64,000 bases of DNA. Origin: Paenibacillus sp. RC67. GTDB taxonomy: Bacteria > Bacillota > Bacilli > Paenibacillales > NBRC-103111. Both the position numbers and the translations under genes were made by a program. The DNA is taken from contig NZ_CP125098.1 in NCBI RefSeq assembly GCF_030020805.1, forward strand, positions 5,975,501 to 6,039,500, given 5' to 3'. Positions within the stretch are counted from its first letter, which is position 1, and each line of letters begins with the position of its first letter. The notes below the pieces were generated by a model. It was given only the letters and a program-made list of their open reading frames with translations. It was not told the DNA's origin and did not search any database. Below are positions 5,445 through 38,815 of this stretch, piece after piece.

Positions 5445-5628
5445 AGCTTCATGGCTTCACAATCTGACAGCTCTTTTTCTATATGAATAAGAGCTATTAA
5501 GCATGCTCATCCAATGTTGGAAGACTTTGTGCCGTGAAATCTGTATAGGCACGTGCTACAATGAAGTGGCTCAAGAGAGCCCAGCGGGATCCGATAATGA
5601 TCTGGGTAGAAGAGCACAAAAAAAACTA

Positions 5629-5742
5629 AAGGCCGAAGCTTTTTTATAAAAGCACGGGGGACCCATTCAATGGGGTGAAGCCACAATTGTGGTAGGGTGA
5701 TTGCTCTTTGACCCGAATCCGTCAGCTAACCTCGCAGGCCGC
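5629..5742 (+). promoter_or_regulatory. c-di-AMP (ydaO/yuaA-type) riboswitch
   Basis: The hallmark 3' half is present: GACCCGAATCCGTCAGC followed by TAACCTCGCAGGCC (5709-5740). The GGGGGACCCA...TGGGGTGAA core (5656-5682) and the GTAGGG segment precede it. GGCC at 5631-5634 and 5737-5740 can close P1. The aptamer ends only 6 nt before the SD site (5747-5754) of the CAP-domain gene, so control may act on translation. In Bacillota this class shuts off cell-wall and osmolyte genes when c-di-AMP is high. Confidence 0.93.
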
Positions 5743-5760
5743 GAAAAGGAGAGGATTTTT

Positions 5761-17935: not shown

Positions 17936-17972
17936 TAAAAAAAGACCGCACGTTATTTAACGTACGGCCTTG
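17936..17972 (-). terminator. Terminator of the TIR-like operon
   Basis: Minus strand: CCGTACGTTA and TAACGTGCGG pair almost perfectly and are followed by TCTTTTTTT. Confidence 0.87.
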
Positions 17973-18000: not shown

Positions 18001-18213
18001 TTATATGAACGACGGCTTGCGGTTCAACACTTTCCCACTGATGACATGAATATATTCTTTGTCGCCGCCTTCAACCGAAGGACCGACGAAAATGCCTGCT
18101 TTAGCATCGCGTTCCTCATGAGGCGTACCTAGATCGGCAGAGCTTTGACTAGCCCACCGTCCCGCTGCGGATCCGTAAATCGACGCCCTCTTAAACCCTG
18201 CGCTTCTGTTCAT
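18001..18213 (-). CDS. Small protein overlapping the TIR-like gene
   Basis: A 70-residue ORF, starting ATG at 18213 with GGAGGGG 6 nt upstream, overlapping the last 23 nt of the TIR-like gene in another frame and followed by a good terminator. The arrangement suggests translational coupling. Composition is Ser/Gly/Ala/Arg-rich in the first half, then GIFVGPSVEGG and YIHVISGKVL; no signal peptide or membrane segment. No recognised family. It could be a partner or regulator of the TIR-like protein, or a spurious ORF; the SD site and overlap argue that it is translated. Confidence 0.5.
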   Translation of the reverse strand: MNRSAGFKRASIYGSAAGRWASQSSADLGTPHEERDAKAGIFVGPSVEGGDKEYIHVISGKVLNRKPSFI

Positions 18214-19240
18214 CTGAATCCCCTCCAACTAAATGACTGATGGTAGCGAGCAGCTCCTCGTTATGATGAACGATCTCCGTGAGATCTTCCTTGGATAACA
18301 CTTTAGATCCGGATATATGCACAGATAGCACATGCTCCTTATCTAAAGGATAACATAGGACATACACCTCAGCAACCTCTTTCCGCCGCAAAAATTCCCA
18401 TGTACTGTTCAGAAAAGCTTCCAGCACATATATTTTTTTATCGTCCTTCTTCTCCGCATAGGTTTGGAAACGGTAAAACTTACCTTTGCCTACATTTCCT
18501 CCTACCTGACGGACGCCATCACTGCCTTCCTTCTTCCAAATCGCCGCACCGGTGACCCGAAAACCCTCGGGAGTCAGCAACGAATTGCGTACAGCTTCGC
18601 TGAAGGAATGATACTTCTCCTCAGGATCGGCAACCGTTACATTCCGATTATATTCCCAAAAGAAGTGAAGGATGCTTTGCTTCCTCTGAATCTCCGCTTC
18701 CTTCTCTGCAAGCAGCTGATACGGATCGGCAAAAGCCTGCTCGGCTCGAACCGCTTTGGCCACATACCCGCAAGCGACATCGACGGCCGCAACATAATTG
18801 TCACGCACCGCCTGATGATAAGTTAAAAGGGTTAAACCTTGTAAATCGGACAAAATATGAAAATCCTTGATCGTCTTATCTTGGATAAGGTCCTCCCGCT
18901 CTTGAACGGACTGCGGAATTAAAGCGAACACGCGGCTGCGCCGAAGCCTGCCCCAAAACAGCCCCATTTCGAACAACGTATTGTCCCGGGTGATGAATAC
19001 GTATTGACCCCGATAAAGGGCCACATCGTCCGCAGCGAATACAAACACCCCAAAGTCGCTTATATCGAGCTGCTGCTCCAAAGCCTCCATCGTGTAGGAG
19101 TTAGCCCCGAAAGCCGTATACCATGGGGTAACTTGGGCCACACGGCTTAAGCTTTCGTTAACGGCTCGCGCATAATCAATCGCTTCCCTGGAGGAGCCGA
19201 TGAATAGCTCCGGTTTTCGTTCTTGCCTCCACACCGACAC
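18191..19240 (-). CDS. TIR-like (Cap12/PycTIR-type) protein with unknown C-terminal domain
   Basis: The N-terminal about 130 residues match the TIR-like nucleotide-binding domain used by CBASS Cap12 and Pycsar effectors: LFIGSSREA, FGANSYTMEALEQQLD, DFGVFVFAADD and RDNTLFEMGLFWGRL. Glu97 (numbered from the TTG at 19258) is the candidate catalytic residue of an NAD-cleaving enzyme. The C-terminal about 200 residues (YHSFSEAVRNSLLTPEGFRV onward) are alpha/beta and unassigned, perhaps a sensor. No cyclase gene is adjacent. GTG at 19240 has AGGGG 7 nt upstream; ATG 19246 and TTG 19258 are alternatives. Overlaps a 70-residue ORF. Confidence 0.78.
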   Translation of the reverse strand: MSVWRQERKPELFIGSSREAIDYARAVNESLSRVAQVTPWYTAFGANSYTMEALEQQLDISDFGVFVFAADDVALYRGQYVFITRDNTLFEMGLFWGRLRRSRVFALIPQSVQEREDLIQDKTIKDFHILSDLQGLTLLTYHQAVRDNYVAAVDVACGYVAKAVRAEQAFADPYQLLAEKEAEIQRKQSILHFFWEYNRNVTVADPEEKYHSFSEAVRNSLLTPEGFRVTGAAIWKKEGSDGVRQVGGNVGKGKFYRFQTYAEKKDDKKIYVLEAFLNSTWEFLRRKEVAEVYVLCYPLDKEHVLSVHISGSKVLSKEDLTEIVHHNEELLATISHLVGGDSDEQKRRV

Positions 19241-19398
19241 GGACATTCCCCTTTTCAAGATCGATTCACGGTTTCCGTAATTCGATCACCATGCTTGTAC
19301 TCTCTATTTAGTGTAGCAAAATTTTCCTTTCCTGTTGATAGTCCCTTTGGAGTTTTTTTATGAACAACAAAATGAATGCTATTTCCATAAAATTCATC

Positions 19399-19455
19399 TT
19401 GCATAAAGAACATATGTTCGGTATATAATAAAGAATAAACACGAATACACGTTCG
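19399..19455 (+). promoter_or_regulatory. SOS promoter with two LexA boxes
   Basis: Two 14-nt boxes, AGAAC-ATAT-GTTCG (19407-19420) and CGAAT-ACAC-GTTCG (19442-19455), each differ by one base from the Bacillus LexA consensus CGAAC-N4-GTTCG. The first lies between a TTGCAT -35-like element (19399) and TATAAT at 19424-19429; the second lies just downstream. LexA would block the polymerase operon until DNA damage. Confidence 0.88.
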
Positions 19456-19473: not shown

Positions 19474-19845
19474 ATGAGTATGAATTCAAGAGTAGAAACC
19501 GAAGAAGATATTCAAATCATCAAGGAATACACGCTGCTGCCCATTTTGCTCGATATGCTGGCAAGAGATATTGAAGAGCTGAACCTGTACAAGGACAAAA
19601 TTGTGTACCATCATGTTATTTTCTACCTCAAGGAAGTGGAGAGCTCCATCTATCCTGAGCTGCAAGCCATTAAAAGCAAGATGAGAGAACGGAGCATCAA
19701 AGTACTGCACACGGACATGAACACGCTTGGCATCGATGTGGAATATAAAGTCCGCGGTTACATCCATCATTTTAAAATGTTGAGAAGCTTGGTAAAGGCA
19801 GAGCTCATGACTACGCTAATGAATTTGCGGAGGCGGTTAAAATGA
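19474..19845 (+). CDS. Accessory protein of SOS polymerase operon (unnamed family)
   Basis: A 123-residue, helix-rich cytoplasmic protein, first gene of the SOS operon. Its ORF overlaps the polymerase start by 4 nt. It is recognisably related to the C-terminal part of the third protein: LLP at 21-23, IKVLHTD near 75-81, RG at 94-95 and F-x-M at 100-102 align with matching spacing. It lacks the YolD-type N-terminus found there. No known domain recognised. Position argues that it assists or controls the polymerase. Confidence 0.75.
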   Translation: MSMNSRVETEEDIQIIKEYTLLPILLDMLARDIEELNLYKDKIVYHHVIFYLKEVESSIYPELQAIKSKMRERSIKVLHTDMNTLGIDVEYKVRGYIHHFKMLRSLVKAELMTTLMNLRRRLK

Positions 19846-21110
19846 TATCGAAGGGTGAGAGAACGATTTTTTTGGCGGATTGCCAGAGCTTTTATGCTAG
19901 CGTAGAGAAAGCGGACCATCCCGGCTGCAGGGATAAGCCCGTAGCTGTAGCCGGTGATCCGGAGCGGCGCTCAGGCATTATACTGGCCGCCTGCCCCATT
20001 GCCAAGGGTTATGGAGTGACTACGGCCGAGCGTCTCGGCGAGGCCTTGAACAAGTGTCCTGAGCTCGTGGTCATGCGTCCGCGCATGCAGCATTATATCG
20101 ATGTCTCGCTCATGATCACCGACATTTATAAGGAATACAGCGACCTTGTCGAAATTTTTTCGATCGACGAGCAATTTTTGGATGTATCCGGAAGCCTTGG
20201 CATCTGGGGAGATCCGCTAACGATAGCTCGATCCATACAGCAGAAGGTGTTCCAGCAAACGGGAGTTAAAGTTAGAATCGGCATCAGCTCGAATAAAATC
20301 CTTGCCAAAATCGCAACGGATATATGGGCGAAGAAAAATGAGAGCGGCTTGTTCACCCTGCGCAAAGAGGATATCGAAGGCACGCTTTGGCAAGAGCCGG
20401 TACAGAAAATGTTCGGCGTCGGGTCTAGGATGACCAAGCATTTTGCACGGCTCGGGATGTTTACGATCGGCGATATCGCGAGAACTCCGCTCCCCCGCTT
20501 GAAGGAGAAATTCCGTGCACGCTTCGGCAAGCAAAGCGATATTCACGCGGAGGTCATGTGGAGAACGGCGAACGGCTTAGATGACTCCCCCGTCACCCCA
20601 AGCACTTTCAACACACCGCCTAAATCGGTAGGCCACATGATGACATTGCCTAGAGACTATACGGAGAATAGCGAGGTAGAGACGATCCTGCTGGAGCTTA
20701 CAGAGGAGGTTTGCCGCGATTGCAGGCGTAAAGGGTATATGGGCGGGGTCGTGTCCGTCAGCTGCATGTGCAGCCCCTATGAGGCTCCGACCGGCTTCTC
20801 ACGGCAAATGAAAATGCCCGATCCGACCAATAACACCAACGCGGTCTATGAGGCCGTCAAGACATTGTTTTACCGCTACTGGGATAAAATGCCTGTACGC
20901 CGCGTAGGCGTCATGCTCAGCAGCTTAACTGACGATGATGTGTATCAATTGACTTTTTTCAAGGATCAGGTGAAATCCCGTGCCTTGGATAAGGTCACCG
21001 ATCAGATCAAGGAGCGTTACGGCAGCGCAGCCATCGTAAGAGCATCCTCGATGACTACCTCGGGGCAAGCATTTGAGAGGGCACAAAAAATTGGAGGCCA
21101 CTATAAATGA
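19842..21110 (+). CDS. uvrX: Y-family DNA polymerase, UvrX/YqjW-like
   Basis: Translesion DNA polymerase of the DinB/UmuC superfamily. N-terminal palm motif FLADCQSFYASVE with the first metal Asp, the second catalytic pair in FSIDEQFLD, the finger motif near YGVTTAERL, and a little-finger domain to residue 422. The SIDEQF wording and size fit the UvrX/YqjW branch. Middle gene of a three-gene operon with 4-nt overlaps on both sides, behind two LexA boxes, so it is induced by DNA damage. Confidence 0.92.
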   Translation: MISKGERTIFLADCQSFYASVEKADHPGCRDKPVAVAGDPERRSGIILAACPIAKGYGVTTAERLGEALNKCPELVVMRPRMQHYIDVSLMITDIYKEYSDLVEIFSIDEQFLDVSGSLGIWGDPLTIARSIQQKVFQQTGVKVRIGISSNKILAKIATDIWAKKNESGLFTLRKEDIEGTLWQEPVQKMFGVGSRMTKHFARLGMFTIGDIARTPLPRLKEKFRARFGKQSDIHAEVMWRTANGLDDSPVTPSTFNTPPKSVGHMMTLPRDYTENSEVETILLELTEEVCRDCRRKGYMGGVVSVSCMCSPYEAPTGFSRQMKMPDPTNNTNAVYEAVKTLFYRYWDKMPVRRVGVMLSSLTDDDVYQLTFFKDQVKSRALDKVTDQIKERYGSAAIVRASSMTTSGQAFERAQKIGGHYK

Positions 21111-38539: not shown

Positions 38540-38815
38540 ACAAAAAAACCCCGTCTCTACGTATAGAGACGAGGTTGAACCCGCGGTACCACTCTAATTC
38601 ATTTCATAAGAAATGAGCTCCTTCGATGGCCATCACCATCTATCCCTGTAACGGTGGAACTCCGGCATACCCTACAATGTTCAGGCAGCTGTTCATAGAC
38701 GAGTTCGAAATGAAGGACACTGCCGCTTCGCACCTACCAACGGCTCTCTGAAAGGTCATTTCAATTCTACTATTTCTAATCGTAACATTTGATTATTGAA
38801 ATTAATGGTTATTAT
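38540..38815 (-). promoter_or_regulatory. T-box leader of leuA
   Basis: The minus strand carries the T-box core AGAGTGGTACCGCGGGTT (around 38597-38578) followed by a terminator, CTCGTCTCTA and TAGAGACGGG with T7. Upstream are stem I elements (CAGAGAGCC, GGAGTTCCACC region). The likely specifier is CTC (Leu) at 38703-38701, in GAACTCGTC. Uncharged tRNA-Leu would favour antitermination and leuA expression. Confidence 0.93.

Follow-up and report, generated by a model that had tools for sequence, protein, structure and literature searches.

A tiny coupled gene accompanies TIR–GAF genes in Bacillales and may form part of a control module for TIR-like effectors

Genes encoding a TIR-like domain joined to a C-terminal domain of predicted GAF-like fold (TIR–GAF genes) are followed in Bacillales by a tiny overlapping open reading frame (ORF), which is a real conserved gene whose pairing with the larger one goes beyond chance. 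The pair lies in the window, a 64,000-nucleotide (nt) stretch of Paenibacillus sp. RC67 (contig NZ_CP125098.1, positions 5,975,501 to 6,039,500). A second TIR-like effector family carries a homologous C-terminal domain and is likewise followed by a small coupled ORF. We see about an even chance that these arrangements represent a new class of control module in Bacillales, in which a GAF-like sensor and a tiny, coupled, obligatory switch would be mounted on at least two kinds of TIR-like NADase effectors.

The initial annotation of the window described a 70-codon ORF that overlaps the end of the TIR-like gene by 23 nt, has its own Shine-Dalgarno site, and shares a terminator with the larger gene, and each of these features was confirmed by the ORF coordinates, the GGAGGGG site, and a 13-pair hairpin with a T run at 17971-17942 (Table 1). 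The overlap extends from the ATG of the small gene at 18213 to the stop of the TIR–GAF gene at 18191, and GGAGGGG doubles as coding sequence for the conserved GGDS tail of the TIR–GAF protein, in which G341 and G342 are nearly invariant. Because the Shine-Dalgarno site encodes this conserved Gly-Gly(-Asp-Ser) end, the end itself may serve the small gene. Three candidate starts, a TTG at 19258, an ATG at 19246, and a GTG at 19240, give the TIR–GAF ORF 355, 351, and 349 codons, respectively, with its stop ending at 18191. The GTG is the end coordinate of the initial annotation, and the matching GTG was chosen by our start-plus-Shine-Dalgarno rule in a 96%-identical homolog (L031).

Table 1. Features of the TIR–GAF gene and its small partner in the window
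Feature	Position	Strand	Evidence or remarks
TIR–GAF gene (probable effector)	18191..19240	minus	ORF, homologs, PF10137 match; dN/dS about 0.05 versus nearest kin
CAP12/Pycsar-type TIR domain	18827..19207	minus	Residues 14-140 of the 351-aa form
Codon of catalytic-type glutamate	18968..18970	minus	Invariant in 75/75 aligned sequences
C-terminal GAF-like domain (predicted)	18221..18724	minus	Residues 175-342, predicted fold; invariant Cys298-Tyr299 pair
Shine-Dalgarno site GGAGGGG of small gene	18220..18226	minus	Within 3' end of TIR–GAF gene; 6 nt before ATG
Small partner gene, 70 codons	18001..18213	minus	Conserved coupled ORF; dN/dS 0.08-0.11 versus two nearest kin; no family match
Conserved C-terminal tail of small protein	18004..18096	minus	GPSxEGxD...KPSF type; alignment A2
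Intrinsic terminator 3' of the pair	17942..17971	minus	13-pair hairpin and T run; z -2.94 for the stretch

The earlier assignment of the N-terminal domain to the Cap12/PycTIR type agrees with a PF10137 match over residues 18-144 of the 355-codon form (E 7.2e-20; 71.6 bits, cut-off 24.7) and with the predicted fold, which resembles Cap12/TIR-STING in a structure comparison of the model. The NCBIfam Cap12 models matched the TIR part alone, at 67 and 58 bits versus a cut-off of 450, and PF13271 (DUF4062) was absent from the window protein in the Pfam scan. The catalytic-type glutamate is residue 97 when numbered from the TTG at 19258, which corresponds to position 93 with the ATG start and 91 with the GTG start. 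Judged by its sequence, the protein is a probable NAD+-consuming TIR effector. For the C-terminal domain, which had been proposed to be a built-in sensor, the structural model aligns to GAF chains; the predicted GAF-like fold looks like that of a sensor, in keeping with the proposal. None of 75 family members matched the GAF families in Pfam at an E value of 0.05, and no convincing solved relative of the domain was found by sequence, the sole PDB match of its profile being an unrelated H2B chain (E 0.81).

The small protein of the window has no match in Pfam, PADLOC, or NCBIfam, and a scan of 60 small proteins returned isolated weak matches, one in Pfam and nine, each to a single member, in PHROGs (best E 0.0011). 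No convincing solved structural relative was found by sequence. The protein is probably disordered, and its predicted model, made for the protein alone, is unreliable (pLDDT 58.7). It consists of two parts that differ in conservation, with a mean pairwise identity of 37% in the tail versus 17% in the basic N-terminal part. The variable N-terminal part has a mean net charge of +6.05 and is positive in 59 of 60 proteins. Two flavors of the small protein, one with KPSF-type tails (mostly Paenibacillaceae) and one with KRKAxY-type tails (mostly Bacillaceae), are bridged by intermediates.

Scans of 79 named loci by tblastn and for ORFs place a small ORF directly 3' of the TIR–GAF gene. The start-plus-Shine-Dalgarno rule recovers it in 73 of the 79, and 58 of these 73 show a 4-nt overlap of the ATGA type, which is the usual layout; the 23-nt overlap is peculiar to the clade of the window. 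Among the six loci missed by the rule, L084 has a small ORF by eye, and the other five have a broken TIR–GAF gene, next to which the small-gene profile still matches. In a larger set of 233 loci, 201 full-length TIR–GAF ORFs were recovered, and every one (201/201) has a coupled small ORF, evidenced by a profile match in 195 and by a coupled ORF plus a Shine-Dalgarno site in the remaining 6. Dereplication of the 201 copies by their last 900 nt left 125 distinct TIR–GAF genes. A coupled small ORF follows 123 of these 125 under a strict rule and 124 under a lenient one, versus 7 and 27, respectively, of 433 control ORFs, which were of at least 250 codons and chosen by length, such that some may not be genes. 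Homologs that lack the small ORF or carry it frameshifted had been named at the outset as evidence that would speak against the pair, and the search for them returned 0 intact TIR–GAF genes without the small ORF among the 125 distinct homologs. A small-gene match was absent after L221 and L222, two TIR proteins that were matched in their TIR part alone.

The small ORF is under purifying selection. Compared with the two nearest kin of the window (L031 and L032), the TIR–GAF gene has a dN/dS of 0.05 and the small gene has values of 0.08 and 0.11, with six neighboring genes at 0 to 0.15; across 20 further pairs, dN/dS spans 0.05-0.15 in the TIR–GAF gene and 0.03-0.56 in the small gene. The TIR–GAF value of about 0.05 is within the range of the neighboring genes and is like those of UvrX and YolD. 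Selection on the small ORF and its incidence relative to the controls both uphold the earlier view of the small partner as a genuine gene.

Small genes also occur without a full TIR–GAF gene. Where the TIR–GAF gene is broken (five named loci), a frame matching the small gene is retained every time, in one case fused in-frame to a TIR remnant. Fifteen further places carry all or part of the small gene and no full TIR–GAF gene; these were drawn from 18 picked by eye, after removal of L192 and L193 (full gene) and L190 (fusion), and L178 and L182 are fragments. Three more such places are L217, L218, and L220. The orphan small genes of L183, L184, L186, L187, and L189 look constrained: 9 of their 10 pairwise dN/dS values are 0.04-0.41, and the other is 1.13 on a dS of 0.03. 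Because the TIR–GAF gene is a target about five times longer, the survival of the small gene amounts to weak, suggestive evidence for an antitoxin, and we estimate the chance that all five breaks fall in the TIR–GAF gene at near 0.4. Two other arrangements were observed. At 5317-5877 in L190 (and in the same sequence in L105), a TIR domain is joined in-frame to the tail of a small protein with no GAF-like domain, and at 5404-5682 in L176, an orphan small gene lies between genes that by eye resemble those of DNA phosphorothioation (Dnd type).

The C-terminal domain and the small gene are found together on a second effector type. Profile searches matched the C-terminal parts of two proteins (L174 and L175) whose N-terminal domain is DUF4062 (PF13271; E 1.2e-20 and 4.3e-19), and each is followed by a coupled small ORF bearing a related GPS-type motif. 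Six longer DUF4062 proteins (L246, L252, L253, L261, L273, and L274) all contain PF13271 and are each followed by a coupled ORF of 50-68 codons; L273 and L274 are on Bacillus plasmids, in which the small ORF is annotated as a hypothetical protein. By hhalign, the C-terminal domain of this long group is homologous to that of the TIR–GAF set (probability 95.7, E 1e-8), and the small proteins of the long group, by eye, resemble the others just in the short motif. A truncated relative (L245), with its N-terminal part out of view, also has a coupled small ORF. DUF4062 is a TIR-like NADase domain that acts in abortive infection, according to the main text of a 2026 preprint (PMC13174449). On a Bacillus velezensis plasmid (L274, 1212-4339), the genes annotated near the DUF4062–GAF pair include those for a macro-domain protein and an RnlB-family antitoxin.

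Among the fetched places, which are a part of those listed, a coupled small ORF follows all 8 DUF4062 proteins that have the C-terminal domain versus 0 of the 11 that lack it, several of the 11 looking closely related by eye and all 11 having been called DUF4062 by a match to profile A3 (with PF13271 in 6 of 6 scanned). Under a looser ORF rule, an ORF follows 2 of the 11 (L258 and L260). One rule was applied to both groups, with Shine-Dalgarno patterns that had been widened after an earlier ORF result, and it passes over L244, for which the looser rule detects an ORF. As TIR–GAF genes, L244 and L249 stand outside the DUF4062 comparison, and the interrupted L251 was dropped before the count; the A5 rows L174, L175, L244, and L249 were selected because earlier profiles matched them. 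A search with the domain alone matched 21 of 200 genomes of the class, and the places listed were TIR–GAF, DUF4062–GAF, or fragments, with no new effector type among them.

The distances among small proteins follow those of the GAF part more closely than those of the TIR part. Over 75 pairs, the partial correlation is 0.69 with the GAF part after controlling for the TIR part and 0.20 for the reverse, and each value exceeds all 1000 permutations (P = 0.001 for both). Taken with the effector swap, these correlations make the GAF-like domain the likelier partner of the small protein. The correlation with the GAF part may reflect a better clock, since the TIR part, being more conserved, is the noisier one.

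Matches to the TIR–GAF protein were obtained in 99 of 197 relatives (some TIR-only), 158 of 296 genomes of the order (TIR-only included), 57 of 398 of the class, and 9 of 398 of the phylum. All 79 named loci are from Bacillales, and the distribution is patchy, with no match in at least five genomes of the same genus. In the tree, the copy from Brevibacillus fluminis groups with the window clade (support 100/100), apart from another Brevibacillus, suggesting transfer. Matching plasmid records number 33, of which one matches over at least 80% of the query; this copy, on a Terribacillus plasmid, covers 95% of the query. None of 50,697 phage records matched. Nine viral-contig loci encode a relative, just one of them nearly full length (L234), and with no match in phage records, a phage origin was rejected; in L234, the pair is near genes that by eye resemble the tail sheath, repressor, and metallopeptidase genes of a prophage edge.

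By Pfam, the ten neighbors of the pair in the window comprise a transporter subunit, a nucleoside hydrolase, IclR, PAP2, YitT, a Y-family polymerase (UvrX type), a DNA ligase, a SASP, and two unmatched genes, which we take to be YolD-like. There is no nucleotide cyclase among the ten, and the CD-NTase family PF18144 (SMODS) has no match in the genome (one contig), in a search that was positive in 3 of 14 control genomes; the earlier remark that no cyclase is adjacent thus stands. Neighboring genes vary among loci and are mostly of housekeeping types by eye, with no widely conserved further neighbor, the next commonest cluster occurring in 15 of 80 loci (ORFs of at least 80 codons).

No promoter for the TIR–GAF gene emerged from a stricter scan of this region of the window; a -10-like hexamer lies within 150 nt upstream in 111 of the 125 distinct members, an uncontrolled count made with a loose pattern. 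A LexA-like palindrome, GAACATATGTTC, lies at 19408-19419 in the interval separating the TIR–GAF gene from the divergent YolD-like/UvrX operon, as expected for an SOS polymerase operon. SOS control as a general trait was rejected, with GAACN4GTTC occurring within 350 nt upstream in 7 of the 125 distinct members. UvrX-type polymerase genes are near the module in the window clade and in Brevibacillus fluminis (window 19842-21110; L033) and, by eye, near the orphan small genes of L184 and L186, a possible insertion hot spot. Elsewhere in the window, Rfam locates a c-di-AMP riboswitch at 5621-5755 (plus strand) and a T-box leader at 38562-38792 (minus strand).

We infer, with confidence and doubt in roughly equal measure, that a NADase effector is gated through its GAF-like domain by the tiny partner, which would most likely act as an antitoxin-like holder of the off state. 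The large protein would be an NAD+-consuming TIR effector joined via helices to a GAF-like regulatory domain, and the small basic protein would arise from a shared mRNA through coupled translation, as the overlap and the Shine-Dalgarno sites suggest. The conserved tail of the small protein would bind the GAF-like domain and most likely keep the effector off. A signal at the GAF-like domain, or the loss, cleavage, or titration of the small protein (for example, during phage infection or another stress), could serve as the trigger, upon which the TIR domains would assemble and NAD+ would be depleted. An inhibitor is the more likely role for the small protein than an activator, and this sign of its action is itself part of what we propose. 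As a possible reading that we nevertheless incline against, the small protein could be a positive partner, i.e., a co-sensor, ligand, or bait without which the GAF-like domain could not activate the TIR domain, with the variable basic part meeting the trigger and the constant tail docking on the GAF-like domain. Such a role would fit the two-part make-up of the protein, with its positively charged variable part and more conserved tail, as well as the strict pairing and overlap, and an obligatory co-sensor would likewise never be lost while the effector functions. However, small genes persist without an adjacent effector and are constrained in one group, for which an activator would have less reason, unless the genomes with orphan small genes use the small protein with another copy.

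Whether inhibitory or activating, the switch could serve either defense or physiology. It is unlikely, in our view, that the pair is a chromosomal regulator of stress or development in spore-formers, tuning NAD+ or making an NAD-derived signal, and not a defense system. The dN/dS of about 0.05, like those of neighboring UvrX and YolD, the variable and mostly housekeeping neighbors with none widely common, the lack of matches in phage records, and the restriction of all 79 named loci to Bacillales are what such a regulator would lead one to expect, but its patchy distribution within the genus, the placement of the Brevibacillus fluminis copy within the window clade, and the Terribacillus plasmid copy are not, and for the alternative effector domain, DUF4062, the published case (main text of PMC13174449) is that of an NADase acting in abortive infection. 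The setting of the loci, with no shared neighbors and a constraint like that of neighboring genes, would accommodate a physiological stress role. A plain phage-defense reading is weakened by the same lack of a widely common neighbor, by the 0 of 50,697 phage records, and by the neighbor-like dN/dS; a defense role is plausible by analogy. The resemblance of the TIR domain to Cap12 and PycTIR would also be expected if the protein were a stranded CBASS effector next to an unrelated or chance ORF, but this is very improbable given the pairing in 125 distinct copies and on two effector types, the selection on the small ORF, and the lack of a PF18144 match in the genome. The pairing statistics bring a chance or unrelated small ORF close to refuted.

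TIR effectors with fused sensors are already known. Like Cap12 (TIR-STING, of CBASS) and PycTIR (of Pycsar), the window protein has a PF10137 TIR domain with an invariant glutamate on one chain with a regulatory domain. Unlike in those systems, the regulatory domain is, by predicted fold, GAF-like and probably not a STING or cyclic-nucleotide-binding domain, no cyclase was found alongside, and a small coupled gene is regularly present. Thus, of the hallmarks of CBASS, the Cap12-type TIR domain is present, but a CD-NTase gene is found neither among the ten neighbors nor, as PF18144, in the genome. The pyrimidine cyclase that lies beside the effector in Pycsar is missing from the ten neighbors by Pfam, and no third gene is widely conserved in 80 loci. 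As in TIR NADases, a glutamate is placed within the TIR fold (75/75 sequences; predicted model).

Closer parallels come from systems that join a NAD-consuming domain to a second component. In Swarozyc (DUF4062 plus an auxiliary domain; main text of PMC13174449), as here, a TIR-like NADase domain is followed by a C-terminal auxiliary domain, and the DUF4062–GAF proteins described above are an effector-swapped version of our module. The solved auxiliary domain of Swarozyc is a winged HTH that binds a phage portal, whereas the domain here is GAF-like by prediction, and a term search of the main text of that paper returned neither "GAF" nor "small protein." Passages of PMC11535050 describe NatR–NatT, which resembles the present pair in having two genes, one for a potentially lethal NAD-consuming enzyme (predicted here), but here the small gene is second, has no match among the antitoxin families of the libraries searched, and is tied to a sensor-like domain. 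The adjacent overlapping genes with Shine-Dalgarno sites have the layout of a toxin–antitoxin system, with the antitoxin action here putative. SpbK, in passages of PMC12847820, is a single-chain TIR defense protein of Bacillus, a TIR NADase acting by abortive infection, to which the putative NADase here can be likened; those passages mention no coupled small gene, which is present here. The TIR–GAF and small-gene pair is not described in the open-licence literature searched (preprint servers being outside its scope), nor does it occur in the passages of PMC13142454 and PMC7159879 that contain the search terms. What is apparently new, having no description in the literature searched, is a tiny coupled partner common to two TIR-like effector families by way of one domain.

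The control of bacterial TIR effectors, both their silencing and their activation, is unsettled for many families, and the module offers a directly testable switch. It is compact, the effector having about 350-400 residues and its partner about 50-105, and it occurs in many Bacillales and on two effector types. Tiny genes are easily overlooked, and in the three plasmid copies looked up, they are annotated merely as hypothetical proteins; screens in which just the TIR gene is expressed would capture no more than half of the system.
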